Virus record (IMG/VR): IMGVR_UViG_3300011432_000036
Location: 1-30,336 of that record
Strand: one strand, 5' to 3'
Length of the DNA: 30,336 nt
Source of the DNA: a virus
The notes below the pieces were generated by a model, which saw nothing but the letters and a program-made list of their open reading frames with translations, had not been told where the DNA came from and searched no databases. Position numbers and translations under genes: made by a program. This document shows, piece after piece, positions 14,058 through 30,336 of this stretch (position 1 is the first letter of the stretch; each line of letters starts with the position of its first letter).

Positions 14058-14077
14058 GTAGAGAGGTTTTCTAATCT

Positions 14078-16571: not shown

Positions 16572-16726
16572 ACCCACGGGGCGCGCTGGCTGCGGTGATC
16601 ACGTTGCCGGCCGTGGCGGGGCGTCTGTCAGTGCGTCGCTCTGGATCTGTGCTGTCGGTTTGCTCGGGCAGGTTTGCTCGGCAAAGCATTGTTCAAGGCA
16701 GAGTCGTTCTTGATAGGCTCACGGCC
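16572..16726 (+). promoter_or_regulatory. Gap before the moron-like gene, weak promoter candidate
   Basis: The reading frame of the next gene is open across this stretch, but the translation has no domain character. A possible promoter is TTGTTC (16689-16694), 17 bases, then GATAGG (16712-16717). This would start transcription almost on the ATG at 16727, giving a leaderless message. The -10 match is poor. Confidence 0.25.
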
Positions 16727-17662
16727 ATGGCAAGAATTGACGATCTGTCGAGCGATGTACGTGAAGTTAAGACTCACTTAGATTGGCATTTCAAGGTCGG
16801 GGGTGGAGGGCTTGCGATCCTGTTTGGAGCGTTGTTCTTCGCTGCGTGGTGGTATCTACCGTCTGAGTTGGCCAAGAGCAGAGATGTCTCAAAAGGAGAT
16901 ATCCGAGAGTTGTTGAGGCCAATTGAGAATCAGCTGGCTCGGTTAGTGGCTGACACTGTGACCGCTGGTGAGAATGCGGGGCCGCGAGTTCTTCAGGCGA
17001 TGGAGCAGAGCCTTGATAATCAGTCAGAACGCCGAGCAGGTTTGGCGACCATCGGCGCCACGGCTCAGAAGGCGTCTGAGCGCCGCGTCCTAGCCGACCC
17101 TACGGCGATCAGAAGTATTGGGGATCGGGTTTTGGCGTTAACAAGTGCTCCAGCGCACGGTGATGCCGCTTGGGAAGCGGCAGTTAGGCTAGCTGACTAT
17201 CGCTCGTTTCTGAACGGGACGCTAGTTTCCATTCCGAATAAGTCATTGCAAACGACGTTCAGCGTCGCGGCCATGGTGACATCAAGGCCCAAGCCAGGAG
17301 CGAGGCCTTCGGACTGGAAAGACTCAGAGTTCCAGTTCCGCTTCTATGGCCCTGTCACAAATGACTGCGCTCGCTCTGTGCGCTTGGCGAACAAAAGCGA
17401 CCCATGCGCCGCTGGGCCTTCCCTGATCGAGCTTTATGGACTTCAACGAGAGGGGGTTGACAGGGTCTTGCTGCTGGACGGCTACTACTTTAAGGACATG
17501 GTTGTTAGGGACATGGTTATTCAGTGGAACGGCGGACCTTTCGAGGCAAAGAACGTGGCGTTCTTGAACTGCACGTTCGACTTTAAGCAGCAAGCGCCAA
17601 GTGAGCCATTCGTCCGACAACTATTCGCAGGAACCCATGTCACGTACTCAGTCCAAGGGTGA
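16727..17662 (+). CDS. Membrane-anchored moron-like protein
   Basis: 311 residues from ATG 16727; the frame is open to 16568, but the added part is not convincing. The N terminus SSDVREVKTHLDWHFKVGGG is followed by one membrane helix (LAILFGALFFAAWWYLP, about 28-44), a helical region and a C-terminal beta domain with DGYYFKDMVVRDMVI and AFLNCTFDF. That V-F-x-N-C-x-F ladder occurs at the end of many uncharacterised bacterial membrane proteins. Codon use is visibly more AT-rich than the neighbours (many AGA, TTG, GTT, AAG-A), and the gene separates terminase from capsid genes. This fits a recently acquired accessory gene, possibly for superinfection exclusion. Confidence 0.75.
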   Translation: MARIDDLSSDVREVKTHLDWHFKVGGGGLAILFGALFFAAWWYLPSELAKSRDVSKGDIRELLRPIENQLARLVADTVTAGENAGPRVLQAMEQSLDNQSERRAGLATIGATAQKASERRVLADPTAIRSIGDRVLALTSAPAHGDAAWEAAVRLADYRSFLNGTLVSIPNKSLQTTFSVAAMVTSRPKPGARPSDWKDSEFQFRFYGPVTNDCARSVRLANKSDPCAAGPSLIELYGLQREGVDRVLLLDGYYFKDMVVRDMVIQWNGGPFEAKNVAFLNCTFDFKQQAPSEPFVRQLFAGTHVTYSVQG

Positions 17663-17720
17663 CTGGCCGACCCACGCCATCGTGTATCGCGATAGTCAGG
17701 GCCGCCCGAAGGGTCGCTGA
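17637..17720 (+). CDS. Possible 27-residue ORF
   Basis: ATG 17637 lies inside the end of the moron-like gene, with AGGA five bases upstream. The peptide has a tail WPTHAIVYRDSQGRPKGR, which has normal composition, and it ends at the base of the hairpin at 17719. It may be a small gene or the remnant of one cut by the insertion. Confidence 0.3.
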   Translation: MSRTQSKGDWPTHAIVYRDSQGRPKGR

Positions 17721-17749
17721 CGTCCGGGCACTGAGACAGTGCCGACGTC
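17719..17749. terminator. Strong hairpin, possible terminator or processing site
   Basis: GACGTC at 17719-17724 pairs with GACGTC at 17744-17749, and GGCACTG (17727-17733) pairs with CAGTGCC (17737-17743) around an AGA loop, with a two-base bulge. That is 13 paired bases. No T-run follows directly, so intrinsic termination is uncertain; the AT-rich stretch at 17763-17778 lies further down. It separates the moron-like gene from the capsid operon. Confidence 0.45.
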
Positions 17750-17817
17750 CGAGACTCCGCCACATTTAAAAACCTAAACTCGCCATCTGATCAGCGGCCT
17801 TCCAGAGTAGGGGGGCC

Positions 17818-19719
17818 GTGAACCGCGCGTACTCCCTGCTCACGATCAAGTCGGTAGATGACGAGCGCCGCGTCATTCGCGGCACGGCCACGACGCCAAC
17901 ACCCGATCGATCGGGCGACATCGTCGAGCCGCTCGGCGCGACGTTCGCCGCAGAACTCCCGCTGCTCTTCCATCACCGAAAAGACGCGCCAGTCGGCACG
18001 GCACGATTCAAGAAGCCGACGGCCAAGGGCATCGACTTCGAGGCGGAAATCCCGGTCATAGAGTCGGCTGGTACGGTTCGCGATCGCGTGAACGAAGCCT
18101 GGGATTCCCTGAAGGCCGGCCTCATCAAGGGCGTGTCGATTGGGTTCAGGCCCATAGAGTACGCCTTTCTGGAAGGCGGCGGCATTCATTTCCTCGAGAC
18201 CGAGATCCTCGAGCTCTCGCTCGTCACCGTGCCAGCAAATCAAGACGCGACGCTGTCGATGGTGAAAAGCCTCGACGCACAACATCTGGCCGCGACAGGC
18301 CGTCATTCGCCCGGCGCCTCGGGCTCTTTACCCGTTGTTCGTGCTGTGAAGGCAGCACCCGCCATGGCGAATACCGTCCAAGAACAGATCACTGGATTCG
18401 AGAACACGCGCGCGGCGAAGTCGGCGCGCATGAATGAATTGATGTCGACCGCGGCCGCGGAGCACGTCACGCTGGACGCGGCCCAGACCGAGGAATACGA
18501 CACGCTGACCGGCGAGGTGAAAGCCATCGACGCGCACCTCGTGCGCCTGAAGCAGCTCGAGACGTTCAACCTGGCCAACGCCACGCGGATCACGAAGACC
18601 ACGGAGCAGATCGCCGCGTCGGAGATGCGCGGGGGCACCCCGACCGTCACCATCAAGCCCAACGTCGCGAAGGGCACCGCCTTCACGCGCTACGCAATGG
18701 CGATGATCCGGGGCAAGAACAGCATCTCGGACGCCATCCGCTACGTCGAGAACAACAAGCAGTGGATGGATCAGACGCCTGAAGTGCTGATGGCGCTGAA
18801 GGCCGTGGTCAACCCCGGCACCATCGCCGAGCCGGCCTGGGCGGCGCCGCTCGCGGTTCAGACCCCGATGGCGCAGGAGTTCCTCGATCTGCTCCGTCCC
18901 GAGACCCTGATCGGCAAGCTGTCCGGACTGAAGCAGGTGCCGTTCAACGTGTCGTTCCCGATTCAGACCGGAGGCGGCACGTACGCCTGGGTCGGAGAAG
19001 GTGCGCCGAAGCCGGTCGGCAATCTGCAGTTCGCCACGATCACGCTCGGCATCACTAAGTCGGCCGGCATCATCGTGATCTCGGAGGAGCTCGCGAAGGT
19101 CTCGAGTCCCTCGGCAGAAGCGACGGTGCGGAACGACATGATCAAGGGCATGGCGCAGTTCCTTGATCTGCAGTTCATCGATCCGACGATCGCGGCGGTG
19201 ACCAACGTCAGCCCGGCCTCGATCACCAACTTGGCGAACGGCTACGCGACCGCTGGCACCTCCGGTGACAACGCGCGGACGGACATCAAGAAGGGGATCA
19301 CGCTCCTCACGCAGAACAACTATCCGATCTCGGAAGTCGTGCTGATCATGTCCGAGGCGAACGCCTTCGCGTTGTCGACGGCGCTCACCAGTAACGGCGT
19401 GCTGGTCAATTCGCAACTCAATGCGAAGGGCGGCAACATCCTCGGCGTGCCGGTCGTGACCAGCCAGTCGGCCGGTCAGGTCGTGGCACTCGTGCACACA
19501 CCCTCGATCGCGTTCGCGGATGACGGCGGCGTGAGCATCGACGTGAGCCGCGAGGCGAGTGTCGAGATGAACACGACCCCGACGTCGCCGGTGACGGCAT
19601 CCAGCGCGTTTGTTTCGCTCTGGCAGTCGAACCTTGTCGGCTTGCGTGCCGAGCGCTTCATCAACTGGAAGCGCTGCCGCTCAACCGCCGTCGTTTACAC
19701 CACGGCCACGTACGTCTAG
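17818..19719 (+). CDS. Prohead protease-major capsid protein fusion
   Basis: 633 residues from GTG 17818, preceded by a run of G. Residues 1 to about 165 are an HK97-type prohead protease (S78): LLFHHRKDAPVG with His52, GVSIGF with Ser107, and LELSLVTVPANQDATL with Glu132. Residues 185-250 are a coiled-coil scaffold (delta-domain-like), ENTRAAKSARMNELMS and following. From about 270 onward an HK97-fold capsid protein follows, with PETLIGKLSGLKQVPFNVSF, YAWVGEGAPKPVG and KSAGIIVISEELAK. The protease would cut the scaffold off during maturation. An in-frame ATG at 18364 begins a sequence (MANTVQEQITGF) that looks like a normal free capsid protein start, so a second, capsid-only product is possible. 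Confidence 0.93.
   Translation: MNRAYSLLTIKSVDDERRVIRGTATTPTPDRSGDIVEPLGATFAAELPLLFHHRKDAPVGTARFKKPTAKGIDFEAEIPVIESAGTVRDRVNEAWDSLKAGLIKGVSIGFRPIEYAFLEGGGIHFLETEILELSLVTVPANQDATLSMVKSLDAQHLAATGRHSPGASGSLPVVRAVKAAPAMANTVQEQITGFENTRAAKSARMNELMSTAAAEHVTLDAAQTEEYDTLTGEVKAIDAHLVRLKQLETFNLANATRITKTTEQIAASEMRGGTPTVTIKPNVAKGTAFTRYAMAMIRGKNSISDAIRYVENNKQWMDQTPEVLMALKAVVNPGTIAEPAWAAPLAVQTPMAQEFLDLLRPETLIGKLSGLKQVPFNVSFPIQTGGGTYAWVGEGAPKPVGNLQFATITLGITKSAGIIVISEELAKVSSPSAEATVRNDMIKGMAQFLDLQFIDPTIAAVTNVSPASITNLANGYATAGTSGDNARTDIKKGITLLTQNNYPISEVVLIMSEANAFALSTALTSNGVLVNSQLNAKGGNILGVPVVTSQSAGQVVALVHTPSIAFADDGGVSIDVSREASVEMNTTPTSPVTASSAFVSLWQSNLVGLRAERFINWKRCRSTAVVYTTATYV
18364..19719 (+). other. Possible internal start giving capsid protein alone
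   Basis: ATG 18364 is in frame with the fusion, with AAGG about ten bases upstream. It would give a 451-residue protein starting at the scaffold coiled coil, the usual layout of unfused HK97-type capsid precursors. Whether it is used cannot be told from sequence. Confidence 0.35.
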
Positions 19720-19742
19720 AGCAGAGACGGGGGATCTAGCGC

Positions 19743-19973
19743 ATGTCTGGATCCCTCGTCGCGATTCGCATGGCCAAAGATCCCACGGTCTGGATGCGGG
19801 CGCTCCGGTGGCACACCTATCTTGGGCGCTCCATCAACGAAGGCGACTTCTATCTCGCGCACCCGGACATCGTCGAGACGCTCGAAGCGTCCTGCCATCG
19901 GTTTTCGGTCCGTGTGCCGCCACCCGAGCGGCCGACGCGACCGCCCTCGTCGGAGCCTGATGACCATTCGTGA
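19743..19973 (+). CDS. Hypothetical protein, 76 residues
   Basis: ATG 19743 with GGGGGA upstream. Segments LVAIRMAKDPTVWMRALRWH and EGDFYLAHPDIVETLEA are followed by a Pro-rich tail. It lies between capsid and isomerase genes and overlaps the isomerase by 14 bases. It may be a small head protein; no family recognised. Confidence 0.6.
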   Translation: MSGSLVAIRMAKDPTVWMRALRWHTYLGRSINEGDFYLAHPDIVETLEASCHRFSVRVPPPERPTRPPSSEPDDHS

Positions 19974-20541
19974 GCGGCTCGTCACGGTGCTGATGGCCGA
20001 GGCTGACGCGATCGCGGCGGTCGTGGTGACCGGCGTCCACGAGCAGGCCGTACTGCGCCTGGCGGCGTGTGCCGGCAAGGTCGTGACGCTCGGGATGGGG
20101 AAGGCGGGTCTCATCGCGCGGAAGTGCGCGGCTACCTTCTGCGCCACCGGCACGCCGGCGCTGTTTCTGCATCCCGGTGAGGCTGCACACGGCGATCTCG
20201 GCGTGCTGACAGCCGAGGATGTTGTGCTCGCTTATTCCACGAGCGGCCACACGGCGGAAGTGCTCGAGACGCTGACGGCGGCCCGGGTTATTGGGGCGAC
20301 GGTGATCGGCATCACGTCGCATCCAGGGACGGCCTTTCGTCAGCGGTGTGATCTGGTGCTGGACATGGGTGTCATCACGGAGCCCTGCCCATTGGGGCTG
20401 ACGCCGACGGCGAGTTCGGCCGTGATGCTGGCGATTGGCGACGCGCTGGCGTTGGCGGTGATGGAGATCAAGGGCATCACGCGTTCGGACTTCGGTGCGC
20501 GTCACCGGGCCGGGTATCTCGGCGAGCGTGCCCGCGCATGA
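19960..20541 (+). CDS. kdsD: D-arabinose 5-phosphate isomerase (SIS domain only)
   Basis: 193 residues, ATG 19960. The protein follows KdsD/KpsF closely: LGMGKAGLIARKCAATF, then PGEAAHGDLGVLTAEDVVLA, STSGHTAEVLETL, TEPCPLGLTPTASS and GARHRAGYLG. Residues equivalent to the E. coli KdsD catalytic set (Lys59, Glu111, Glu152, His193) are present as Lys48, Glu100, Glu141 and His182. The enzyme interconverts ribulose 5-phosphate and arabinose 5-phosphate, the first step to KDO. The paired CBS domains of E. coli KdsD are absent, as in some natural short forms. Its place between capsid and portal genes is remarkable and links it to the glycosyltransferases downstream. The symbol is given by family; the substrate is untested. 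Confidence 0.88.
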   Translation: MTIRERLVTVLMAEADAIAAVVVTGVHEQAVLRLAACAGKVVTLGMGKAGLIARKCAATFCATGTPALFLHPGEAAHGDLGVLTAEDVVLAYSTSGHTAEVLETLTAARVIGATVIGITSHPGTAFRQRCDLVLDMGVITEPCPLGLTPTASSAVMLAIGDALALAVMEIKGITRSDFGARHRAGYLGERARA

Positions 20542-21941
20542 ACATCCTCGGCCTCACCATCCGGCGCACGAAGGCTGGCTACGAGATCAGCCGAACGAAG
20601 GCGATCCCGCAGCCACTCTCGACCCTGAGCGGCCGCGGTGGCTGGTGGAGCGTCGTCCGTGAGCCGTTCATGGGCGCCTGGCAGACGAATCAGGACATAC
20701 GAACCGACACGGTTCTCACCTATTTTGCGGTCTTCGCGTGCACGACGCTGATCGCCTCTGACATCGCCAAGTTGTGCCTGCGGCTCGTGCAGCAGGATTC
20801 GAACGGCATCTGGACGGAGACGGACAGCGCGGCGTTCTCGCCGGTCCTTCGGAAGCCGAATCACTACCAGACGATCATCAAGTTCCTCGAGCAGTGGGTC
20901 GTCTCGAAGTTGATCCACGGCAACACGTACGTCCTGAAGGAGCGCGACGCGCGCGGCGTCGTGACGGCGATGTACATCCTCGACCCGACGCGCGTGATTC
21001 CGATGGTCGCGCAGGATGGATCGGTCTGGTACGAATTGAAGCGGGACGATCTCTCCGGGCTGCCGAATGAAGCGTTCACCGTGCCGGCGCGCGAAATCAT
21101 CCACGACACGATGGTCGCGCTGTATCACCCGCTGATCGGCGTCAGTCCGATCTATGCGTGCGGGTTGGCGGCGACGCAGGGCCTCGCGATTCAGAGCAAC
21201 TCGCAAAAGTTCTTCTCGAACGGATCGAATCCTGGCGGCGTCCTGACGGCACCGGGGGCGATCGCGCAGGAGACCGCCGATCGCTTGAAGGCGTACTGGG
21301 ATACGAGCTTCTCCGGGGACAACTACGGCAAGGTCGCGGTGTTGGGCGACGGCCTGAAATACGAAGGCCTGGTCGTGAACGCGGTGGACTCGGAGTTGAT
21401 CGAGCAGTTGAAGTGGACGGCCGAGAACGTGTGCAGCTGCTACCACGTCGCGCCGTACATGATCGGCGTCGGCCCGCCGCCTCCCTACGCGAACGTCGAG
21501 CCGCTTTTGCAGCAGTACTTCTCGCAGTGCTTGCAGACGCTGATCGTCTCGCTCGAGAAGAGCCTCGACGAAGGTCTCGGACTCGGTCCGCAGGCCGGCA
21601 ACAAGTTCGGAACCGAATTCGACATCGGCGATCTGATCTGGATGGACACGGCGACGCGGACGAAGGCCGCCGGCGACGGCATCGGATCTGGGGCGCTGTC
21701 ACCGAACGAGGCACGGAAGAAGTACTACGGCTACGGCCCGGTGAAGGGCGGCAATTCACCAATGGTGCAGCAGCAGTACTTCTCGCTGGAAGCCCTGGCT
21801 GAACGCGACTCTGACAAGCCGTTCGCGAAGCCTGCTCCTGCACCTGCGCCGGCGCCACGCACAGACGATGACGAGATGAACGGTGCGGCGTTCCTGGCCG
21901 CTATGCAGAAAGAACTCGACGAGGGACTGTATGCAGCCTGA
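20538..21941 (+). CDS. Portal protein (HK97 family)
   Basis: 467 residues, overlapping the isomerase stop as ATGA. The N-terminal TVLTYFAVFACTTLIASDIA, then LRKPNHYQTIIKFLEQWVVS, GNTYVLKERD and YILDPTRVIP are the usual landmarks of HK97/P22-type portals (phage_portal family). The stem region includes GVSPIYACGLAATQGLAIQS. The C terminus has a Pro-Ala stretch (AKPAPAPAPAPRT) before a helical end. It forms the dodecameric DNA channel at one capsid vertex. Confidence 0.93.
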   Translation: MNILGLTIRRTKAGYEISRTKAIPQPLSTLSGRGGWWSVVREPFMGAWQTNQDIRTDTVLTYFAVFACTTLIASDIAKLCLRLVQQDSNGIWTETDSAAFSPVLRKPNHYQTIIKFLEQWVVSKLIHGNTYVLKERDARGVVTAMYILDPTRVIPMVAQDGSVWYELKRDDLSGLPNEAFTVPAREIIHDTMVALYHPLIGVSPIYACGLAATQGLAIQSNSQKFFSNGSNPGGVLTAPGAIAQETADRLKAYWDTSFSGDNYGKVAVLGDGLKYEGLVVNAVDSELIEQLKWTAENVCSCYHVAPYMIGVGPPPPYANVEPLLQQYFSQCLQTLIVSLEKSLDEGLGLGPQAGNKFGTEFDIGDLIWMDTATRTKAAGDGIGSGALSPNEARKKYYGYGPVKGGNSPMVQQQYFSLEALAERDSDKPFAKPAPAPAPAPRTDDDEMNGAAFLAAMQKELDEGLYAA

Positions 21942-22926
21942 CGAGCTCGCGCGCAGCGTGGTCCTCATGGTCCGCGCGTCGCTTGCACCGTTATTCGAGC
22001 GAGTGGCGGCGTTCGAGGCGCGGCTCGCGACGTTGGATGGCGTGCGCGATCGGGTCGTGGCGATTGAGACGAAGCAAGCGATGCCGGCACCTCCACCGGT
22101 GGTCGATCCGGCGATTGCCGAGGTGCGCGGGCTGGTCTCTCGGTTTGCTGATCACTCTGCCGATCCCGCAGTGCTGGTCGGGCTGACGACTCGCCTGAAA
22201 GCGCTCGAAGACAGGCCCAGTCCAGAACCATTTGATCCTCGCGTTCACGACATGAACACACGTCTGACTGAGGTCGAGGTCGCCTGCAAGTCGATCGAGA
22301 CAGCCGTCACAGTGGCGCTCTCGAAGGAATTGGGCGGCGTTCGTGAGCGGCTGGCCTCACTCGAGACACGCGCACCGGTGCCCGGTCCTCCGGGCCCTGC
22401 TGGCGTCAACGGACTCGACGGCAAGGCCGGCCGTGACGGCGTCGACGGGAAAGACGGCAAGGACGCGGCCTCGGCCGACTTCGCGAAGGACATCGAGACA
22501 CTCCGCGACCGCGTGCAGGTTGTGGAAGTCCGCGGCGTGGTGCCAGGGCCTGTGGGCCCGGCCGGCAAGGACGGCGCATCGGGTCGTGACGGGCGAGACG
22601 GGCACGACGGCATCGCGTTGGACGACCTGTCGGTCGCGGTCGAGCACGAGCGCACGTTCATCTTCCGGGCGCGTGTCGGCGGTCAGATCAAGGACATCGG
22701 CGCGCTCACCGTGCCGGTAGACATCTACCGCGGCGTCTGGGTCGAGGGCAAGACCTACGAGCGCGGCGACGGCGTGACGTGGGCCGGATCCGAGTGGCAC
22801 TGCAATGACACGACGACGGTAAAGCCTGGCGACGGATCACGAGACTGGACGCTGAAGGTCAAGCGCGGGCGGGACGGCAAGGATGGCAAGGATGCTGAGC
22901 AGCCACTACCGGTCGTGAAGCGATGA
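21931..22926 (+). CDS. Collagen-like protein with coiled coil and chitin-binding-type module
   Basis: 331 residues, overlapping the portal gene by 11 bases. Residues 1-150 are helical heptad-like (FERVAAFEARLATLDGVRDR), probably a trimeric coiled coil. Three collagen-like blocks follow: GPPGPAGVNGLDGKAGRDG and onward from about 152, GPVGPAGKDGASGRDGRDG from about 208, and GRDGKDGKD near the end. Between the last two lies a CBM5/12-like stretch (GVWVEGKTYERGDGVTWAGSEWHC, about 268-291), a carbohydrate-binding fold common in phage fibres. It is likely a virion fibre or head decoration. The glycosyltransferase genes start immediately downstream, so it is a candidate glycosylation target. Confidence 0.82.
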   Translation: MQPDELARSVVLMVRASLAPLFERVAAFEARLATLDGVRDRVVAIETKQAMPAPPPVVDPAIAEVRGLVSRFADHSADPAVLVGLTTRLKALEDRPSPEPFDPRVHDMNTRLTEVEVACKSIETAVTVALSKELGGVRERLASLETRAPVPGPPGPAGVNGLDGKAGRDGVDGKDGKDAASADFAKDIETLRDRVQVVEVRGVVPGPVGPAGKDGASGRDGRDGHDGIALDDLSVAVEHERTFIFRARVGGQIKDIGALTVPVDIYRGVWVEGKTYERGDGVTWAGSEWHCNDTTTVKPGDGSRDWTLKVKRGRDGKDGKDAEQPLPVVKR

Positions 22927-23564
22927 CCACGGAAACGGCGACTCCATCGTGCGCGCGTGTCGAGCGCCTCTGGTCCGGTGAACGCGTGGTCATCCTCGGC
23001 GGCGGCTGCAGTCTGACCGATGACGACGTGGAGTTCTGCCGCGGGAAGGCGCGCGTCATCGCGATCAAGGAAGCGTATCTGCTCGCGCCGTGGGCCGATG
23101 CGCTGTACGGCTGCGACCCGAAGTTCTGGCGCTTCTACGAGGGCGCGCCGACGTTCACCGGCCTGAAGTACACGATTGCGCAGGATCCCGCACAGGAGCA
23201 GCACACCGCATGGCCCGGATTGCAAGTGCTGAGGAACACCGGACAGGACGGGCTCGAAGTCGACCCGTCTGGGCTCCGAACCGGCTTCAACAGCGGGTAT
23301 CAAGCCATCAACCTGGCCTTCCACCTCGCCGGCCCGACGCAGATCGTGCTGCTCGGGTTCGACATGTGGGCCGGACCGGACGGGCATCAGAACTGGTTCG
23401 GGCCACACCCGAACCACGTCGACAGCCCGTACCCCATCTTCCTCCAGGCGTTCCGGTCGATCGAGGAACCGCTCGCGGACGCTGGCGTCCAGGTGCTCAA
23501 CGCGTCGCGGTTCACGGTGATGAACAGCTTCCCGCGCGTGCCGCTCGAGGAGGCGCTGGCGTGA
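22923..23564 (+). CDS. GT42/DUF115-like phage protein
   Basis: 213 residues. RVVILGGGCSLTDDDVEFC forms the N-terminal nucleotide-type loop, followed by IAIKEAYLLAPWADALYGCD and GFNSGYQAINLAFHLAG with IVLLGFDMW. The order resembles the Rossmann-like core shared by the DUF115 (MptE-like) and bacterial sialyltransferase (GT42) families, and near relatives are frequent in phages. A donor sugar cannot be assigned. It is the first of four consecutive coupled sugar-type genes, and its stop overlaps the next start as GTGA. Confidence 0.65.
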   Translation: MTTETATPSCARVERLWSGERVVILGGGCSLTDDDVEFCRGKARVIAIKEAYLLAPWADALYGCDPKFWRFYEGAPTFTGLKYTIAQDPAQEQHTAWPGLQVLRNTGQDGLEVDPSGLRTGFNSGYQAINLAFHLAGPTQIVLLGFDMWAGPDGHQNWFGPHPNHVDSPYPIFLQAFRSIEEPLADAGVQVLNASRFTVMNSFPRVPLEEALA

Positions 23565-24307
23565 TCCCGGTGGCGTATTACGTGCCGACCGAGGCGACCT
23601 CGCCGAAGTTCGCGTACGCCTTCGCGAAAGGGTGCGGAGGGCAAATCACGGACGACATCGGCTATCTGTTCGACGGGCCGGTCGCCGCCTTCGGGTCGCC
23701 GCCCGTCTGGCCGCTCCTCGATCGCGCGCGGGCGCAGGGTCGTGACGTCTATTTCGGCGACCACGGGTACTTCGGACGCAAGAAGTTCTATCGCATCGCG
23801 AAGAACGCCTTCCAGCACGACGGCCGCACGCCGGCCACGCCGCAACGATTCGAGGCCTTCGAGCGCCGTGTGCAACCGTGGCGGCGTACGGGCGACTACG
23901 TCCTCGTGTGTCCGAACTCAGCGATCTATTTCAAATTGCACGGGCAGAACATCGACGAGTGGCTGATCACCGTCCGCGAAACCGTCGCCAAGCACACCGA
24001 TCGCCCGATCAAGATTCGATGGAAGACAACGGCGATTCCCATCGAGGAAGACCTGGCGCACGCCTGGGCCGTGGTGGTCTTCAGCAGTGCGTGTGCCATC
24101 GATGCGCTGATCGCCGGGGTGCCATGTTTCACGACGGCACCCTTCGCGGCGACGGCGCGCATGGGGCTGTCCGATCTGTCACAGATTGAATCGCCGTACT
24201 ACCCTGACGATCGGGAACCGTTCCTCTGGAGCCTCGCCGATCATCAGTGGTCGATTCAGGAAATCTTCAGCGGCGCCGCGTGGCGAACGCTGGAGGGGCG
24301 GGCCTGA
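23561..24307 (+). CDS. GT-B-like protein, possible polysaccharide glycosyltransferase
   Basis: 248 residues from GTG 23561. RDVYFGDHGYFGRKKFYRIA near 60, YVLVCPNSAIYFKLHG near 117, and VVVFSSACAIDALIAGVPCF near 170 resemble the C-terminal donor-binding half of capsule and teichoic-type transferases, which show S-x-x-x-x-D-A-L-x-x-G-x-P. The N-terminal half is shorter than in those families. Function is inferred from this pattern and from the neighbours. Confidence 0.6.
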   Translation: MIPVAYYVPTEATSPKFAYAFAKGCGGQITDDIGYLFDGPVAAFGSPPVWPLLDRARAQGRDVYFGDHGYFGRKKFYRIAKNAFQHDGRTPATPQRFEAFERRVQPWRRTGDYVLVCPNSAIYFKLHGQNIDEWLITVRETVAKHTDRPIKIRWKTTAIPIEEDLAHAWAVVVFSSACAIDALIAGVPCFTTAPFAATARMGLSDLSQIESPYYPDDREPFLWSLADHQWSIQEIFSGAAWRTLEGRA

Positions 24308-25098
24308 TGTTCGTCAAGAGTCGGCCACTCAAGGCGGGCGAGCGCGTGTACATCGGATGGGACGCGGCCGAAGCGGTGGCGTGGAATGTCGCGGAGTATT
24401 CCCTATTCCGCCACGCCAGCCGGCGCCTGATTCGCACGGACCGGATCGCGCTGCAGACGCTCGGCGCGAGGTATCAGCGCCAGACGTCCGCACTGACCAA
24501 CGGGCAGCTCTTCGACGAGATCTCCGGTGCGCCGATGAGCACTGGCCACGCCATCGCGCGGTTTTTCATTCCGCTCCTGCAGGAGTTCAGTGGCTGGGCG
24601 CTCTTCACCGATGGCGACGTGCTGTTTCGTGAGGACGTCGGGAATCTCTTTGAGATGGCCGATCCGAAGTACGCGGTGATGGTTGTGCAGCATCCGCCGA
24701 TCCTCGAGGCCGCCACGAAGAAAGCCGGGCATGTGCAGCAAGCGTATCCCCGGAAGAACTGGTCGAGCGTCATCCTTTTCAACTGTGGCCACCTTGCGAA
24801 TCGGGCACTCACGCTGCAGGCGCTGAACACGTGGACCGGCCGCGATCTGCATGCCTTCTCGTGGCTGCGGGATGCGGAGATCGGCGAGCTGCCGGCGCGC
24901 TGGAATCACCTCGTGCACATCAGCCAGCCTGATCCGAATCCGGCGCTGGTGCATTACACGCTCGGGACGCCGGACGTCGACGGGCACGAGCACGATCCCT
25001 TCGCTGACGAGTGGAGGCTCGCGGCGCGCGTGGCCGGCTACAGCAACCTGTTGGCATTCCACACCGAGCTCCAGGGCGTCGGAAAGGCGGCGGTGTAG
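24307..25098 (+). CDS. GT8-like glycosyltransferase (GT-A, DxD)
   Basis: 263 residues, ATG 24307 overlapping TGA. RVYIGWDAAEAVAWNVAEYS at the N terminus, FTDGDVLF with the metal-binding Asp102-Gly-Asp104, YPRKNWSSVILFNCGHLANR, and LRDAEIGELPARWNHLV are strong landmarks of a large phage/bacterial GT-A family related to GT8. His-Tyr-Thr-Leu-Gly near 217-221, just before PDVDGHEHD, resembles the second metal/donor site. It probably transfers a sugar from a nucleotide donor. Neither donor nor acceptor is known. Confidence 0.8.
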   Translation: MFVKSRPLKAGERVYIGWDAAEAVAWNVAEYSLFRHASRRLIRTDRIALQTLGARYQRQTSALTNGQLFDEISGAPMSTGHAIARFFIPLLQEFSGWALFTDGDVLFREDVGNLFEMADPKYAVMVVQHPPILEAATKKAGHVQQAYPRKNWSSVILFNCGHLANRALTLQALNTWTGRDLHAFSWLRDAEIGELPARWNHLVHISQPDPNPALVHYTLGTPDVDGHEHDPFADEWRLAARVAGYSNLLAFHTELQGVGKAAV

Positions 25099-25100
25099 CC

Positions 25101-26039
25101 GTGGGCTGGGGCGATGAACTCGTGGCCGCCGGGCAGGCGCAGCGCCTCTTCGATGCCGATCCGTCAACGCGGATCGCGATCGTCGGGATGGACGCGCAAC
25201 CGCGCTGGCACGAGATCTGGCTCGGGAATCCGATCATCGCCAGTCCTGCGGATGTGGCGAAGGGCGAACCGGTTCGATCGGTGATGAACGGCCCGAACTG
25301 CCGACCCTACATCGTGCCTCCGTTCACCAAGGAAACCGGCTGGACGTTCAACCAGGCGTTCCGCTGCCGGGATCACATCGCGCGGATCTACCTCACGCAC
25401 GAGGAGCGCGCGCGCGGCGAGGTGGCCTACGAGAAGTATGGGCCGTACGTCCTGATCGAGCCGTTCACGAAGCACGTCAACTTCCGCTGGGCCCATGCGC
25501 GCTGGGCCGAGCTCGTCGCGGCGCATCCGGATCTCGTGTTCGTGCAACACACGCACAAGGACTCAGAACTGGTGCCTGGCGCCCACTACGAGCGCGCGAC
25601 GTTCCGCGAGGCCTGCGGGCTCATCGCCTCGGCCTGCGCGTATGTGCGGTCCGAGAGCGGGCTCTGTCATGCCGCGGCGGCCTTGGGGATTGCGCAGGTC
25701 ACGCTCTTCGGCGGGTGCATGGACTCCACGGTGATGGGCGGGTATCCCGGGCAGGAGTGCCTCGTCGATGACGACCCGGCGTCGCCGTGCGGGGCGTGGC
25801 TGGCCTGTGAGCACTGCTCGGCGGCGATGGGGCGGATCACGGTGGAGCGGGTGTCGGACGCGCTGTCTCGGGCATTGAAGAAGGGGGCCGGCAGTGGCAC
25901 TGGTGTCGCTCGAACAAGCGAAGGGGCATCTGCGGATCACGGACGTCGCAAGCGACGCCGACCTGAACATGAAGGTCGAGCAGGCGAGCGCGATCATCGT
26001 GACCTACATGAAGGATCAGGCCGAGGCCGGCTGGAGTGA
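25101..26039 (+). CDS. GT9 (heptosyltransferase)-like glycosyltransferase
   Basis: GTG 25101 follows the previous TAG by two bases. YVLIEPFTKHVNFRWAHARW, then FREACGLIASACAYVRSESG and LCHAAAALGIAQVTLFGG, with a G-Y-P element after it, fit the ADP-heptose:LPS heptosyltransferase (GT9) C-terminal half. The N-terminal half is short, but GWGDELVAAGQAQRLF is the usual G-x-G-D start. The reading frame runs to 26039 and overlaps the connector gene by 146 bases. The last 50 residues are Arg/Glu-rich and look like an out-of-frame reading of that gene, so the true end is probably near 25890, implying an indel or a recent loss of the original stop. Confidence 0.75.
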   Translation: MGWGDELVAAGQAQRLFDADPSTRIAIVGMDAQPRWHEIWLGNPIIASPADVAKGEPVRSVMNGPNCRPYIVPPFTKETGWTFNQAFRCRDHIARIYLTHEERARGEVAYEKYGPYVLIEPFTKHVNFRWAHARWAELVAAHPDLVFVQHTHKDSELVPGAHYERATFREACGLIASACAYVRSESGLCHAAAALGIAQVTLFGGCMDSTVMGGYPGQECLVDDDPASPCGAWLACEHCSAAMGRITVERVSDALSRALKKGAGSGTGVARTSEGASADHGRRKRRRPEHEGRAGERDHRDLHEGSGRGRLE

Positions 26040-26175
26040 CGGGTCGGTCGCTGTGCCCGGGAACGTGGAAGCGGCGACGCTGATTGTCCTCACGGATCTG
26101 CGGGAACTGCGGCCGATTGATTGGGCCACGGTGGAACGGCTACTGGTCGGGATGCGGGATCCGACGCTGGCATGA
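25894..26175 (+). CDS. Head-tail connector protein (HK97 gp6-like)
   Basis: 93 residues from GTG 25894 with AAGGGGG upstream. The opening VSLEQAKGHLRITDVASDAD is the classic signature of the phage connector family (gp6/phage_connect_1), in which four helices form a ring under the portal. It ends in RPIDWATVERLLVGMRDPTLA, where small connectors usually finish with a helix and a R-x-P-x-x-A tail. Confidence 0.88.
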   Translation: MALVSLEQAKGHLRITDVASDADLNMKVEQASAIIVTYMKDQAEAGWSDGSVAVPGNVEAATLIVLTDLRELRPIDWATVERLLVGMRDPTLA

Positions 26176-26462
26176 ACATCGGCGCCATGCGGCACCTCGT
26201 GACGCTCGAAGCCGGCCCGGACGGTACGCCGACGGCCTACGTTCCGTCGAGGGTCTACGCGGCGATCGCGCCGGCGCCGCCGGGGGCCTTCGATGAGCAG
26301 CGGATCACGCATCAGGTGTCGATCTGGTATCACCCGCAGATCACGTTCGACACGGTGATCGTGCATCAGGGGACGCGTCGGTTGTACGTGAAGGGCATTC
26401 AGAACATCAACGAGCAGGACCGGGAATTGATGCTGCTCTGCGAAGAGGTGAAGACGCCGTGA
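26172..26462 (+). CDS. Head closure/head-tail joining protein
   Basis: 96 residues, ATGA overlap at 26172. The short N-terminal GAMRHLVTLEAGPDGTPTAY followed by strands VYAAIAPAP, HQVSIWYHPQITFDTVIVHQ and RRLYVKGIQNINEQDRELML matches the phage head-tail joining (stopper) family, including the I-x-N-x-x-E-x-x-R-E-L segment. It closes the portal channel after packaging. Confidence 0.88.
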   Translation: MNIGAMRHLVTLEAGPDGTPTAYVPSRVYAAIAPAPPGAFDEQRITHQVSIWYHPQITFDTVIVHQGTRRLYVKGIQNINEQDRELMLLCEEVKTP

Positions 26463-26716
26463 CGATTTATGGGCCGGTAGACGTCAGCAAGCACGCTGCG
26501 CTCAAGAACTCCGGTCACGAACTGCGCGTGTTTGTGGATGGCGTAGACATCACCGATCGCTGCCGTTTCTTCGACGACACACCCGGTGCACGCGTCGCTG
26601 AAATTTTCAGGGTCGACAACGATGGTCGGAAGTACGTAGACCCATCCACTGACACCGCAGCGGTAGATCGCGTCTACGAATTCGAGGTCGTCGAGGTGCC
26701 GCAGGCATGTCAGTAA
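26459..26716 (+). CDS. Hypothetical protein, 85 residues
   Basis: GTG 26459 overlaps the previous TGA. The core HELRVFVDGVDITDRCRFFDD followed by VAEIFRVDNDGRKYV is beta-rich. It sits between head-closure and gp10-like genes, where other phages have small unknown proteins. No family recognised. The end overlaps the next gene by 10 bases. Confidence 0.65.
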   Translation: MTIYGPVDVSKHAALKNSGHELRVFVDGVDITDRCRFFDDTPGARVAEIFRVDNDGRKYVDPSTDTAAVDRVYEFEVVEVPQACQ

Positions 26717-27114
26717 AAGTCCAGTGGTCCGGATTGAACGAACTCCTGCGCGCGCTGGGGTCGCTTCCGCGCGATCTCCAGTCCGAGGGCATGGGGATCG
26801 TCCGCGACGAAACCGAGGGCGCCGCGGTGGAGATGGCGCAGGGCTACGAGAAGAAGTCAGGCAAGCTCGCGCGGTCGGTCCGGACGATCTACCCGGCGAG
26901 CAATCTCCTGATTGGGATCGCGCAGGCGAAGGCGCCGCACTCACACCTCTACGAATTCGGGACCGAGCAGCGACGCACGGCAAGCGGCGCGAATCGCGGC
27001 CGGATGCCGGAGAGGGCGGTCACGGTGCCTATCGCTCGCCGGCGGCGGGCGAACATGGCTCGACGCCTGGTGGACATGTTGCGGCGGTACGGGTTCCGGA
27101 TAGGTGACGCATGA
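26707..27114 (+). CDS. HK97 gp10-like tail-completion protein
   Basis: 135 residues from ATG 26707. KVQWSGLNELLRALGSLPRD at the N terminus, EKKSGKLARSVRT, and HSHLYEFGTEQRRT followed by RRGRMPERAVTVPIA-like sequence are the defining features of HK97 gp10 family proteins, with the H-x-x-x-x-E-F-G-T element. These act in joining the tail to the head. Its stop overlaps the methyltransferase start as ATGA. Confidence 0.88.
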   Translation: MSVKVQWSGLNELLRALGSLPRDLQSEGMGIVRDETEGAAVEMAQGYEKKSGKLARSVRTIYPASNLLIGIAQAKAPHSHLYEFGTEQRRTASGANRGRMPERAVTVPIARRRRANMARRLVDMLRRYGFRIGDA

Positions 27115-27737
27115 GGGACGTCCTGCTGTACGGGTTGAGCGCGTCGCCGGATTTCGCGGCCTTGCTGCATTGGGCACAGACCACGAAGGATGTCGAATTC
27201 CCGGCGCCGGATCCGCATCGCCTGCAACTCGAACACTGGGTCTGGTCGCATCGCGAGCAGCTCGGGACCGACGTCCTCGATGTTGGCGTCTACTTCCGGC
27301 GCACGTATCTCGGTGCCGGCTATCTCACGGTCGGTGAGAACGGCGAAGACGTGAGAGCCGACCTCTGCGCGCTGCCGTTCCCGGTCGGCCGGTTCGATGG
27401 CGTCGTGCTGACCGAGGTGCTCGAGCACTGCAAGGATCCGTTCACGGCGGTCAAGGAAGTGCACCGCGTGCTGAAGCCGGGAGGTTTGCTGCTCGTGACG
27501 TCGCCGTTCCTGTGGCCGTGGCACGGCACAGAGGATTACCAGGACTACTGGCGCTTCACGCACGAAGGTTGGGCGCTGCTCCTCAAGGACTTCACCGACG
27601 TGGAGATCACGGCCTGTGCGTGGACGCCGGAAGCGACGGCGGCGTACGACCAGATGCGCCGGTTCGAGTGCATGGGGTTCGCGAACCAGACGAAAGCGAC
27701 GACCGGCTATCTGTGCACGGCGAGGAAGGCGGCATGA
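27111..27737 (+). CDS. Class I SAM-dependent methyltransferase
   Basis: 208 residues. VLDVGVYFRRTYLG sits at the motif I position but lacks the usual G-x-G-x-G. Later motifs are intact: RADLCALPFPVGRFDGVVLT, EVLEHCKDPFTAVKEVHRVL and KPGGLLLVTSPF, as in the Methyltransf_11 family. The DYWRFTHEGW element is seen in sugar and small-molecule methyltransferases of polysaccharide clusters. It lies between tail-completion and glycosyltransferase genes and probably methylates a glycan. The altered motif I may weaken SAM binding. Confidence 0.82.
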   Translation: MRDVLLYGLSASPDFAALLHWAQTTKDVEFPAPDPHRLQLEHWVWSHREQLGTDVLDVGVYFRRTYLGAGYLTVGENGEDVRADLCALPFPVGRFDGVVLTEVLEHCKDPFTAVKEVHRVLKPGGLLLVTSPFLWPWHGTEDYQDYWRFTHEGWALLLKDFTDVEITACAWTPEATAAYDQMRRFECMGFANQTKATTGYLCTARKAA

Positions 27738-28822
27738 ACCGGCTCCTCCTGATTCACCCGGGCGCATCGTGGTCGACCGCGGATGTCGAAGCCGGGCTGC
27801 GCTATGGGCTCGAGGTGCACGGGTGCCGCATCCTGAGGTATCGGCTCGACACGCGGATCGTGCGCGCGGCGCGCTGGCTGAATGCGAACTGGCGACTCGC
27901 GAAGAAGACGAACCCGACGATCGCACGACCGACAGATGCCGACATGGTCTATCAGGCCGGAGTCGGGGCGCTCGAGATGGCGCTCCGGCATCAGGTCGAC
28001 GCGGTGATCGTGGTGTCGGCGATGCTCCTGCATCCCGACGTGATCGTGCTGATGAAGCGCGCCGGTCTCAAGGTCTTCATCTTGTTCACCGAGTCACCGT
28101 ATGACATGGACAAGGAAGGGCCGATCGCGAAGCTGGTTGACGGCTGCTGGACGAACGAGCGGACGGTGGTCGATGCCTTCCGTCGCCTCAATCCACGCAC
28201 CGGCTATTTGCCGCACGCCTGGCATCCGCTGCGCCATCGTCACGACGCGCCGATGGAGGATGTCCCTGCGCACGACGTCGTGTTCGTGGGCACCGGATTC
28301 ACCGAGCGCGCGCAGTGGTTCAACGCGATCGACTGGACCGGGATCGACCTGGGTCTGTACGGCAACTGGCGCGACGTCGGCCTGAACGCGCAGCTCCAAG
28401 CGTGCGTACGCGAGGAAGAGATCGAGAACACGAAGGCGGCCTCGCTCTATCGTCGCGCGGCGATCGGGTTGAACCTGTATCGCCGATCGATGGGATGGGG
28501 CAAGGATGCGCCGCAGATCCACACGGCCGAGAGCCTGAGTCCGCGCGCGTATGAACTGGCGGCGTGCGGGGTGTTTCATCTCAGCGACTATCGCCCGGAA
28601 GTTCCGGAGGTCTTCGGCGATCTGGTGCCGACCTTCCGAGGACCGTTTGAAGCGGAGCAGTTGATTCGTCAGTGGTTGCCCGATGTGAACGGGCGCGCGC
28701 GGGTGTCCGCGCACCTTCCCGCCTGCGTGGCGGAGTCGTCATGGGTCCAGCGTGCGGCCTGTGTCATCGGTGACGTGCAATCAGCATTGGCTGAGCGCCA
28801 CGTGACGGCCGCGGCCGTCTGA
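27734..28822 (+). CDS. CgeB-like glycosyltransferase (GT-B)
   Basis: 362 residues, ATGA overlap at 27734. The N-terminal half has LLLIHPGASWSTADVEAGLR and VIVVSAMLLHPDVIVLMKRA, with LFTESPYDMD. The C-terminal half has VVFVGTGFTERAQWFNAI, IGLNLYRRSMGW and ESLSPRAYELAACGVFHLSD, ending with PEVFGDLVPTF. That L-S-x-R-x-[FY]-E-x-x-A-C-G segment is typical of CgeB/Glyco_trans_1_2 transferases. It should transfer a nucleotide-activated sugar. It is the last of the sugar genes before the tail tube. Confidence 0.85.
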   Translation: MNRLLLIHPGASWSTADVEAGLRYGLEVHGCRILRYRLDTRIVRAARWLNANWRLAKKTNPTIARPTDADMVYQAGVGALEMALRHQVDAVIVVSAMLLHPDVIVLMKRAGLKVFILFTESPYDMDKEGPIAKLVDGCWTNERTVVDAFRRLNPRTGYLPHAWHPLRHRHDAPMEDVPAHDVVFVGTGFTERAQWFNAIDWTGIDLGLYGNWRDVGLNAQLQACVREEEIENTKAASLYRRAAIGLNLYRRSMGWGKDAPQIHTAESLSPRAYELAACGVFHLSDYRPEVPEVFGDLVPTFRGPFEAEQLIRQWLPDVNGRARVSAHLPACVAESSWVQRAACVIGDVQSALAERHVTAAAV

Positions 28823-28835
28823 CAAAGGACACACC

Positions 28836-29234
28836 ATGCCTCCCTATCACGGCAAAGGCGGCGTCGTTTACGCGTCGAGTTCTGGATCTGGCACCGCCAT
28901 CGCGGTCGTGCAGTTGACGGAGTGGACGCTCAACATGGCGACGGACAAGGTCGAGACGACCTCGTTCCTCGACACGAATAAGACCTACGTCCAGGGCTTG
29001 CGCGACATTCAGGGCACGCTCTCGGGCTTCTGGGACAGCGCCACGGATCAACTGTTCGACGCGAGCGAGTCGACGGACGGGATCAAGATGTATCTCTATC
29101 CGAGCAACCTCGCACCGACGGTCTACTTCTACGGCCCGGCGTGGTTGGACGCGTCGATCAACGTCACCGTGGCCGGCGCGGTAGGCATGACGGGCAACTT
29201 CGTGGCAAACGGCGCATGGAGCCGGAAGCCGTAG
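28836..29234 (+). CDS. Major tail tube protein
   Basis: 132 residues, AAAGGA upstream. VVQLTEWTLNMATDKVETTS and FLDTNKTYVQGLRDIQGTLS, then GFWDSATDQLFDA and GIKMYLYPSN are the expected features of a siphophage tail tube subunit: strands of the tube barrel with the long loop, and a T-G-x-F strand near the end (MTGNFVANGAW). Position before the tail chaperones fits. Confidence 0.85.
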   Translation: MPPYHGKGGVVYASSSGSGTAIAVVQLTEWTLNMATDKVETTSFLDTNKTYVQGLRDIQGTLSGFWDSATDQLFDASESTDGIKMYLYPSNLAPTVYFYGPAWLDASINVTVAGAVGMTGNFVANGAWSRKP

Positions 29235-29240
29235 AGGTGT

Positions 29241-29501
29241 ATGGCGATCACAGCGAAGGGCCTCGCGGGAGAAGTGCGATGGGTGTACTTACCAGCCGTC
29301 ACATTTGGCCCGTGGTCCTTCGTTCCAAGCGACGGGAAGACAGGCACATTGACGGCGCAGATCGTGAGCGTCGACGAGTTTCGGATGCAGCAGCGTCCGC
29401 TCGTCGTGGTGGTGCCGGCCGGCCGCGCCGAGTGGCGGTGGTCCGTGACCGATCTGCAGATCTCCGGAACGACGCTCACGGCGAGCGTGGTTCGACTGTG
29501 A
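29241..29501 (+). CDS. Hypothetical small tail-region protein, 86 residues
   Basis: ATG 29241 with GAGGTG upstream. It is a beta-rich sequence (EVRWVYLPAVTFGPWSFVPS; ADIVSVDEF-like QIVSVDEFRM) ending in RRWSVTDLQISG-like WRWSVTDLQISG. No family recognised. The position between tail tube and chaperone genes suggests a tail role. Confidence 0.65.
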   Translation: MAITAKGLAGEVRWVYLPAVTFGPWSFVPSDGKTGTLTAQIVSVDEFRMQQRPLVVVVPAGRAEWRWSVTDLQISGTTLTASVVRL

Positions 29502-29507
29502 GGCAGC

Positions 29508-29912
29508 ATGGCTCGTTGCAGGTTCGTTCAACCCGATGTGGTCCGACTCTCGCTCTCCGAGGGTGACTGGATCGGGGTCAAGAAGCGGCTATCGGTCGGC
29601 GAAGAGCGCGCGGCGTTTCAGCAGATCGTCGGGGAAATCAATCCGAACAGCGGCTGGCGGAAGCCGAACGTTGAGATGCTCGGGATCGCGGAGATGGCCG
29701 CCTACATCGTCGAGTGGTCGCTTCGGGATGCACAGGATCGACCGGTGGCCGTATCGGTGGCCGCGATCAAGCAACTGGACTCCGCGACGTTCAAGGAAAT
29801 CGAATCGGCCCTGGCCGCTCACGTCGAGGCGACAGAGGCGGCGCTGGCGGCCTCAAAAAACGATCCGGATGGCAAGCTCGAACCCGTACCGACTTCGCCA
29901 TCTGCCGCCTGA
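29508..29912 (+). CDS. Tail assembly chaperone, first product (gpG-like)
   Basis: 134 residues in the zero frame. LSLSEGDWIGVKKRLSVGEE followed by AAYIVEWSLRDAQDRPVAVS is typical of small tail chaperones, which bind the tape measure protein during tail assembly and are not in the final particle. Near the end, the slippery heptamer A AAA AAC lies in the correct register, so part of the ribosomes should shift to make the longer G-T product. Confidence 0.85.
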   Translation: MARCRFVQPDVVRLSLSEGDWIGVKKRLSVGEERAAFQQIVGEINPNSGWRKPNVEMLGIAEMAAYIVEWSLRDAQDRPVAVSVAAIKQLDSATFKEIESALAAHVEATEAALAASKNDPDGKLEPVPTSPSAA

Positions 29913-30019
29913 TGAAGTGGTCCTACGGGGATCTGATGGATCTGCCGGCGGATTTATACGGGGAGTTGATCGAGTTCTTGAGTGAGCAGCCGAAGGGAAT
30001 GGATGTTGACGACTTCTAA
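29508..30019 (+). CDS. Tail assembly chaperone, frameshifted gpGT-like product
   Basis: A -1 shift at 29855-29861 joins residues up to AALAASKK with the -1 frame, which runs RSGWQARTRTDF and then MKWSYGDLMDLPADLYGELI to the stop at 30017-30019. The joined product is about 169 residues. The T part has the W-S-x-x-x-L-M-x-L-P pattern of second-half tail chaperones. The order tail tube, G/GT, tape measure is conserved in siphophages. Confidence 0.8.
29855..29861 (+). other. Programmed -1 frameshift site A AAA AAC
   Basis: The heptamer sits exactly in the zero-frame phase (TCA AAA AAC), and the -1 frame is the one that carries the T-like segment. This is the canonical X-XXY-YYZ slip site used by lambda-type tail chaperones. 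Confidence 0.85.
29912..30019 (+). CDS. Second chaperone segment (T), possible independent start
   Basis: ATG 29912 overlaps the G stop as TGATG, so the 35-residue T segment could also be made alone by coupling. It contains KWSYGDLMDLPADLYGELIE and ends PKGMDVDDF. The frameshift route is the better supported one. Confidence 0.4.
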   Translation: MKWSYGDLMDLPADLYGELIEFLSEQPKGMDVDDF

Positions 30020-30038
30020 GGACGCGAGGGCCGCGTAA

Positions 30039-30336
30039 TTGGCTGTCTCCGCCACGTTCGCCGCCGACTTCACATCGTTCTATTCCGCCATCGACAAGGC
30101 GGACGTGAAGCTGCGCGGCCTCGATTCCTCGTCGAGGTTCGTCGAGCGTGGATTGAACCGTCTCGTCGACAACTTCTCCGGCCGGAAGCTGATACAGGAA
30201 GCCACCCTCATGGCGGATGCCGTCGAGCGGATCGGTGGCAAGTCCAAGCTCACCGAGGCCGAACTCCAAAGCGTCGGCAACAAGGCGGCCGAGGCCGCCG
30301 AGAAGATGAAGAGGCTCGGGATCGAGGTGCCACCGA
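30039..30336 (+). CDS. Tape measure protein, N-terminal part (partial)
   Basis: Open frame from TTG 30039 to the right edge (99 residues visible). FAADFTSFYSAIDKADVKLR, then RLVDNFSGRKLIQEATLMAD and AVERIGGKSKLTEAELQSVG are typical of the helical N terminus of siphophage tape measure proteins. It sets tail length and is chaperoned by the G/GT products. There is no ATG near the start; TTG follows an in-frame TAA by one codon position and is the only good candidate. The rest lies outside the window. Confidence 0.85.
   Translation, partial: MAVSATFAADFTSFYSAIDKADVKLRGLDSSSRFVERGLNRLVDNFSGRKLIQEATLMADAVERIGGKSKLTEAELQSVGNKAAEAAEKMKRLGIEVPP

Follow-up and report, generated by a model that had tools for sequence, protein, structure and literature searches.

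Putative virion-glycosylation genes interleaved with head and tail genes of an uncultivated phage, with Maf-like relatives in P1 and D3

In the cluster O mycobacteriophage Corndog, genes for an O-methyltransferase, two glycosyltransferases and a putative N-acetylglucosaminyltransferase lie between the portal and protease genes; the passages of the Corndog report that deal with these enzymes state that they were produced in infected cells and not detected as virion parts, and the authors proposed that they modify the capsid (PMC4351075). Covalent glycans on virion proteins, including the major capsid protein, are attributed to mycobacteriophages Che8 and Rita in a passage of PMC11256854 that cites the original work (Freeman 2023), which indicates that decoration of phage virions is real. 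Here, we analyzed seven sugar-chemistry genes in IMG/VR virus record IMGVR_UViG_3300011432_000036, a metagenome contig of 30,336 nt (hereafter the window, i.e., the whole stretch of DNA analyzed) from a virus known from this contig alone. The genes lie at 19960-28822, all on the + strand, among those for capsid, portal, connector, head-closure, gp10 and tail-tube proteins. This interleaving on one strand had been described in a first-pass annotation made from the sequence alone, and all seven genes were recovered by profile, fold and gene calls; the gene families that it had assigned from motifs proved to be right in profile and structure searches.

Our results are best explained if the seven genes specify a soluble cytoplasmic glycan pathway that O-glycosylates at least one virion protein, either ahead of assembly or in its course, a reading that we hold at slightly better than even confidence. 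The observations behind it are the identities of the proteins by profile or fold, the overlapping gene layout, the recurrence of a transferase cassette at the same gene joints, the co-movement of its members, and the finding of the isomerase together with Maf-like enzymes. As expected of a virion-glycosylation module, the transferase genes lie among virion structural genes, and a virion glycan is predicted. That a glycan might be made during assembly, perhaps on virions, had been proposed at first pass; it is the best reading left and is supported by the Maf-like fold of the GTa protein, and it is still one that we infer. The genes of the region (aa, amino acids; ORF, open reading frame; SAM, S-adenosylmethionine; Kdo, 3-deoxy-D-manno-oct-2-ulosonic acid) are as follows.

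17818..19719, + strand, major capsid protein, protease-fused (backbone); Pfam Phage_capsid 4.5e-16, Peptidase_S78 4.9e-8; phrog_617 1.8e-127
19743..19973, + strand, small ORF of 76 aa between capsid and isomerase; gene call, homologues in relatives
19960..20541, + strand, arabinose-5-phosphate isomerase with a single SIS domain (KpsF/KdsD type, no CBS domains); Pfam SIS 7.5e-19; PDB 5uqi 2.3e-44
20538..21941, + strand, portal protein; Pfam Phage_portal 6e-76
21931..22926, + strand, portal-associated protein, collagen-like G-X-Y repeats and a C-terminus resembling CBM5/12; phrog_1289 8.2e-27
22923..23564, + strand, GTa, Maf/GT42-like glycosyltransferase; phrog_4603 1.2e-32, model fold
23561..24307, + strand, GTb, GT-B enzyme folded like retaining Kdo transferases but lacking their catalytic motifs; model fold
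24307..25098, + strand, GT8-like glycosyltransferase with invariant DXD; phrog_28018 5.6e-47 (function unknown); PDB 5gvv 7e-4
25101..26039, + strand, GT9, heptosyltransferase-like; Pfam Glyco_transf_9 5.8e-7; WaaC 2gt1 8.2e-7
25894..26175, + strand, head-tail adaptor Ad1; phrog_40 2.5e-6, profile of relatives 7.7e-28
26172..26462, + strand, head closure Hc1; phrog_25 0.0013 and position in relatives
26459..26716, + strand, ORF of 85 aa with no recognised family
26707..27114, + strand, gp10-like neck/tail completion protein; phrog_5 3e-11
27111..27737, + strand, class I SAM-dependent methyltransferase (MTase); Pfam Methyltransf_11 6e-14
27734..28822, + strand, CgeB-like/Glyco_trans_1_2 glycosyltransferase; Pfam PF13524 6.5e-14; MTase-fused in contig L112
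28836..29234, + strand, major tail (tube) protein; phrog_10528 5e-10

In the scheme that we consider, GTa would start the glycan by transferring a ulosonic acid activated by CMP, either Kdo or a nonulosonic acid of the host, to surface Ser/Thr residues of a virion protein. Extension of the glycan would fall to GTb, GT8, GT9 (with a heptose-like donor) and the CgeB-like enzyme and capping to the methyltransferase, and the arabinose-5-phosphate isomerase would boost the supply of Kdo precursor. We infer the donor sugars, the acceptor protein, the order of the enzymes, the timing and the benefit.

The AlphaFold model of GTa (predicted local distance difference test, pLDDT, 92.8) matched the Maf flagellin O-glycosyltransferase 5mu5 at Z 15.1, CstI at 12.1 and CstII at 12.0 over 177-184 residues; next came SteA at 10.6, a non-transferase with fewer residues aligned, and mammalian sialyltransferases at 8-9. 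A plain Foldseek search had given unrelated Rossmann dehydrogenases as the top matches, a result that was superseded by structural re-ranking, with Maf first. From its model, GTa appears to share the catalytic-domain fold of Maf and CstI/CstII, but it has 213 aa and lacks the flanking parts of Maf, which has 632 residues. GxGPSL and SGxxxxxA..LG..xxLxGxD of GTa align collinearly with CstII, at a profile E of just 0.6, and G28, S30, G121 and G145 are invariant across 30 members. The conserved histidine that follows the LxGxD motif of CstII is a candidate catalytic base; a possible counterpart in GTa, judged from the sequence, is H162, present in 19 of the 30 members, and position 157 has H or N.

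GTa homologues were found in isolated phages as PmgO of P1, HdmB of P7, Orf7 of D3 and gp10 of PAJU2, as well as in Caulobacter giant phages and Tetraselmis virus S20; P1 PmgO matched GTa in frame (28% identity, 4e-8). P1 PmgO and D3 Orf7 can thus be counted among the Maf-like enzymes, and this recognition is new. The transferase label for the GTa family itself is not, as 'alpha-2,3-sialyltransferase' already stands on members in PHROGs and in some records. The D3 homology (contig L132, 5816-6409) starts in frame upstream of the annotated orf7 start, inside orf6.5, and orf7 is probably annotated too short. P1 pmgO was non-essential in two screens (PMC10695390), which fits a role in decoration and not in assembly. 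A Maf enzyme puts Kdo, as well as N-acetylneuraminic acid, on protein Ser/Thr (PMC11339370), so that the chemistry of a protein glycan started with Kdo is plausible. It is conceivable, and we suggest it only tentatively, that minimal Maf-like O-glycosyltransferases, P1 PmgO and D3 Orf7 included, are widespread and unrecognised and place Kdo or another ulosonate onto virion proteins, some phages supplying the isomerase as well.

The SIS-domain protein matched structures of single-domain sugar-phosphate isomerases and was closer to arabinose-5-phosphate isomerases than to GmhA: its top PDB matches were 5uqi (2.3e-44), 3etn (1.6e-41) and 2xhz (2.1e-37), the last being the E. coli arabinose 5-phosphate isomerase by name, and GmhA-type matches reached just 1e-6. 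It fell below the NCBIfam KpsF/GutQ subfamily cut-off (161.8 vs 203.7 bits), as expected because it has no CBS domains and covers positions 1-152 of the 268 in the KpsF profile, the SIS part only. We therefore amend the KdsD-type isomerase of the first-pass annotation to a predicted single-domain arabinose-5-phosphate isomerase of the Kdo pathway. Few viral lineages carried a close homologue: the window, L086/L102 (with a partial one in L154, after terminase), L146 and L103. The isomerase accompanies the full cassette in L086. It directly follows GTa in L146, with GT-D, GT8 and two methyltransferase genes around, and in L103, which has an SU10-type adaptor, it shares the interval from a capsid-like gene to that adaptor with a Maf/MptE-like + methyltransferase fusion and GT9. 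The L102 and L154 contigs end short of the relevant joint, and weaker homologues in large contigs (L149-L153), where gene calls are poor, had no cassette profiles nearby. This co-occurrence in three lineages beyond the window ties the predicted isomerase to Maf-like enzymes. The set in L103 (7442-10660), which is an unrelated phage, also holds a radical SAM/SPASM enzyme, the order being capsid, fusion, radical SAM, isomerase, GT9, adaptor.

For GTb, no sequence family was found in Pfam, PHROG or NCBIfam profile scans. Its model (pLDDT 91.5) had Kdo transferases as all of its nearest solved structures (KpsC 8fux, Foldseek E 1.9e-8, Z 13.1; best unrelated chain 9.2), and it appears to have the GT-B fold of KpsC, WbbB and KrkA (GT107, GT99 and GT140). 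These enzymes carry the catalytic QXXXD and (K/R)XHP motifs, which are key elements of retaining Kdo transferases (PMC12887879, PMC10148158), whereas GTb members carry neither. QXXXD was found at no shared position in 14 members, CPNSxxYF being in its place (the equivalent position was judged from the sequence pattern), and the CMP-binding (K/R)XHP motif was found in 0 of 14 C-terminal domains, the equivalent strand having RWK/R without HP. The assignment of GTb as a Kdo transferase, which the fold had suggested, was therefore rejected as a membership claim, and its donor is not assignable from the fold. In addition, a weak hhalign comparison of GTb with KpsC gave a probability of 1.2, and PF05159 (Capsule_synth) had no match in the window.

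The GT8-like protein scored under the Pfam cut-off (0.0076), and its D103xD105 is invariant in 18 relatives. GT9 exceeded the Pfam cut-off for Glyco_transf_9 (29.5 vs 22 bits) and reached no NCBIfam equivalog cut-off for heptosyltransferases of lipopolysaccharide (LPS; ~20 bits vs 134-437), so that an ADP-heptose donor should not be assumed. A viral-contig protein scan with the CgeB-like protein found nothing. CgeB and MTase are fused in L112, and a Maf-like enzyme and MTase in L103.

To place the genes among relatives, 80 viral contigs were recruited by portal protein, with sugar genes disregarded, and more were recruited via the GTa, GTb, GT8 and isomerase proteins; a simple codon model served to call their genes, which were then identified by profiles built from the relatives. 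The relatives have in common a backbone of capsid, portal, collagen-like, Ad1, Hc1, gp10, tail terminator and tube genes. Transferase genes followed the collagen-like gene in ~20 of the 80 portal-recruited contigs, and 34 ran from the collagen-like gene to Hc1 without any. Apart from the window, 12 contigs have the order GTa-GTb-GT8-GT9 (L085, L086, L088, L105-L109, L112, L113, L115 and L117), some with one extra gene in between; L085/L086, L107/L108 and L112/L115 appear to be near-copies, leaving about nine distinct cassette contigs. The cassette usually lies between the collagen-like gene and the connector/closure genes. It follows Ad1 instead of preceding it in L088 and L105 (Ad1/Hc1 joint), and its flanks are unrecognised in L117. 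Such recurrence, for the most part at one joint, indicates that the arrangement is not due to chance. Other cargo at these joints included FkbM-type, Methyltransf_24, GT2 and GT-D genes, or genes without a Pfam match. At the capsid/portal joint, where the isomerase lies in the window, 24 of 70 portal-recruited contigs had cargo, including a methyltransferase family; part of this cargo, being small, may be structural.

By identity, the window portal is closest to those of L011 and L006, which have no cassette there, or of L010 and L008, which end before the joint; its sister on the portal tree is L114, with the cassette present. The window cassette proteins are closest to those of L114, L086/L101 and L105. 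Rank correlations of identity were 0.86 for GTa-GTb and 0.77 for GTb-GT9 within the cassette, compared to 0.41 for GTa and 0.14 for GT9 against the portal. On a 55-tip portal tree, the state of the collagen-like/Hc1 interval, with or without transferases, changed ~5 times, vs 18.9 with shuffled labels. The sugar genes are thus exchanged, though fairly stable within lineages, and they are optional, moving largely as a unit at a few preferred joints. The first-pass annotation had proposed that variable passengers at unrelated sites in related phages would count against its reading; variable passengers they are, as the 34 contigs without them show, but the sites are a few joints of the head-tail operon. 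HNH-like cysteine motifs were seen by eye in genes of L011 (14232-14729, - strand) and L113 (4764-5453), beside MTase/CgeB genes or the capsid gene, and it is possible that these are homing endonucleases that aid exchange at the joints. Related cassettes also occur in the metagenome-assembled genome contigs L127 and L128, labelled Alphaproteobacteria and Aurantimonas, where binning errors are possible; this is a hint that alphaproteobacteria are the hosts of the phage group. A nucleotide search of the phage record collection gave no match for the right half of the window.

All genes of interest at 17818-29234 are on the + strand, with an even G+C content of 0.62-0.68 (85-aa ORF excepted), and no promoter- or terminator-like sites above shuffled expectation were found in 14000-30336. 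Exact 4-base overlaps occur at seven junctions: SIS/portal, collagen-like/GTa, GTa/GTb, Ad1/Hc1, Hc1/26459, gp10/MTase and MTase/CgeB. The stop/start overlaps reported at first pass are mostly of this kind, and two starts were revised, GT8 most likely starting at 24307 (ATG, with a one-base overlap with the GTb stop) and GT9 at 25101 (GTG). The simplest reading of this layout would be a single polycistronic late message for the 17818-29234 genes. GT9 extends ~40 aa beyond the usual end of its family and overlaps Ad1 by 146 bases (25894-26039); its C-terminal tail is either a real extension or the product of a lost stop or assembly error. The tail-terminator gene, which lies between gp10 and tube genes in other relatives, was undetectable by profile in the window, L112 and L115 (E >1; L113, 2.7e-47). 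The MTase/CgeB genes fill its spot at window 27114-28836, and likewise in L112 and L115; L011 and L028 retain both. Elsewhere in the window, ORFs of 481, 248, 766 and 364 aa (8409-12900 and 16568-17662), one of them between terminase and capsid, had no Pfam or PHROG match.

With respect to a possible acceptor, the protein encoded before GTa contained more G-X-Y triplets in phages with the enzymes (median ~28) than in those without (10; clusters of 90% portal identity, p about 1e-6), and the difference persisted in phylogenetic generalized least squares regression (p 0.0055). Its Pfam matches in the window, Collagen 4e-6 and CBM_5_12 5.8e-4, did not reach the cut-offs. Capsid length differed slightly (657 with vs 631 without enzymes, p 0.002), and portal length showed no difference between phages with and without the enzymes. 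The collagen-like repeats were considered as Ser/Thr acceptor, a proposal weakened by a Ser/Thr content of ~4%, which would make them a poor one; should the collagen-like protein be the one modified, its sites would probably lie elsewhere than in the repeats. The capsid and tail-tube proteins are further candidates.

Several points weigh against glycosylation of the virion. The collagen stretch has the same ~4% Ser/Thr at X and Y as in phages without the enzymes, and the few transferase state changes on the portal tree mean that the collagen association rests on few events and is suggestive only. Furthermore, the isomerase is absent from most cassette-bearing contigs, the putative link to Kdo depends on the isomerase and the promiscuity of Maf, as GTb is without Kdo-transferase motifs, and LPS enzymes, too, include those of the heptosyl- and GT8-type. 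Finally, the evidence comes from the genes of a contig rather than from an isolated phage.

The main rival to virion glycosylation is that late in infection the enzymes change a glycan of the host surface, be it LPS core, capsule or O-antigen, thereby blocking re-adsorption to debris or excluding other phages. We consider this unlikely, though well worth weighing, as GT9 resembles LPS heptosyltransferases, the fold of GTb is that of capsule/O-antigen Kdo transferases, and the isomerase resembles capsule KpsF-type enzymes. However, no flippase or polyprenyl-linked transferase is found among the seven proteins, and hydropathy revealed no likely membrane helix in any of them, unlike in a Gtr-type seroconversion cassette, in which GtrA is a membrane flippase and GtrB a polyprenyl-linked transferase; LPS core transferases are cytoplasmic, so the missing membrane domains are not decisive. 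In addition, insertion sites in these relatives are limited to virion-gene joints, and the commonest cassette member is Maf-like, Maf enzymes acting on proteins. It is less probable still that the genes are unlinked passengers (morons) at permissive joints of the late operon, with separate roles and no joint glycan. Relatives do differ in content, many having none and others another set, and HNH-like genes adjoin some of the sugar genes. Nevertheless, GTa, GTb, GT8 and GT9 co-evolve with their order kept, the same order recurs in Caulobacter phage CcrColossus, and the MTase+CgeB and Maf-like+MTase fusions suggest joint action. Phages do employ glycosyltransferases for DNA-base modification, and the window also holds a DNA-methyltransferase-like gene, but addition of these sugars to phage DNA bases as anti-restriction hypermodification is very improbable, since five differing transferases and a Kdo-pathway isomerase fit poorly with it and no base hydroxymethylase or related synthase was found among the window genes scanned, a weak argument given that the contig is incomplete.

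If virion glycosylation is the correct explanation, sugar-coating of virions would be common in Gram-negative phages as well as in mycobacteriophages, with a chemistry akin to that of flagellar and LPS/capsule enzymes, and the 'putative morphogenetic' genes of P1 and D3, so far without a role, would gain a likely one. Virion glycans may affect particle stability, adsorption and immune recognition, and the idea is directly testable, as D3 and P1 are laboratory phages.

Systems of this kind are already known from Corndog and Che8/Rita; what is new is the enzyme set, its spread over several joints in apparently Gram-negative phages, and the isomerase link. Corndog, likened here by its description, resembles the window in having several transferases and a methyltransferase within the head operon and differs in host group and joint, and neither a Maf/KpsC-type pair nor an arabinose-5-phosphate isomerase is mentioned in the passages describing its locus. 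For Maravista, which is related to Che8 and Rita, the available description places the transferases near the 3' end of the genome, unlike in the window. The first-pass statement that phage sugar genes usually sit in separate blocks was too strong, because they lie among head-tail genes in Corndog, D3, PAJU2, S20 and many IMG/VR contigs. In D3 and PAJU2, the latter sharing its backbone with the window, the GTa homologue likewise adjoins Ad1 or Hc1 and a methyltransferase precedes the gp10 gene; they differ in having one GTa-like enzyme, one methyltransferase and one hypothetical gene, with no GTb, GT8 or GT9 seen. Tetraselmis virus S20, an unrelated phage, has a similar enzyme set among capsid or tail genes. 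CcrColossus, a jumbo phage that is likewise unrelated, carries GTa-GTb-GTb-GT8-MTase-GT9, the cassette order of the window, between a tail protein and endolysin genes, whereas the window has its cassette in the head-tail connector region.

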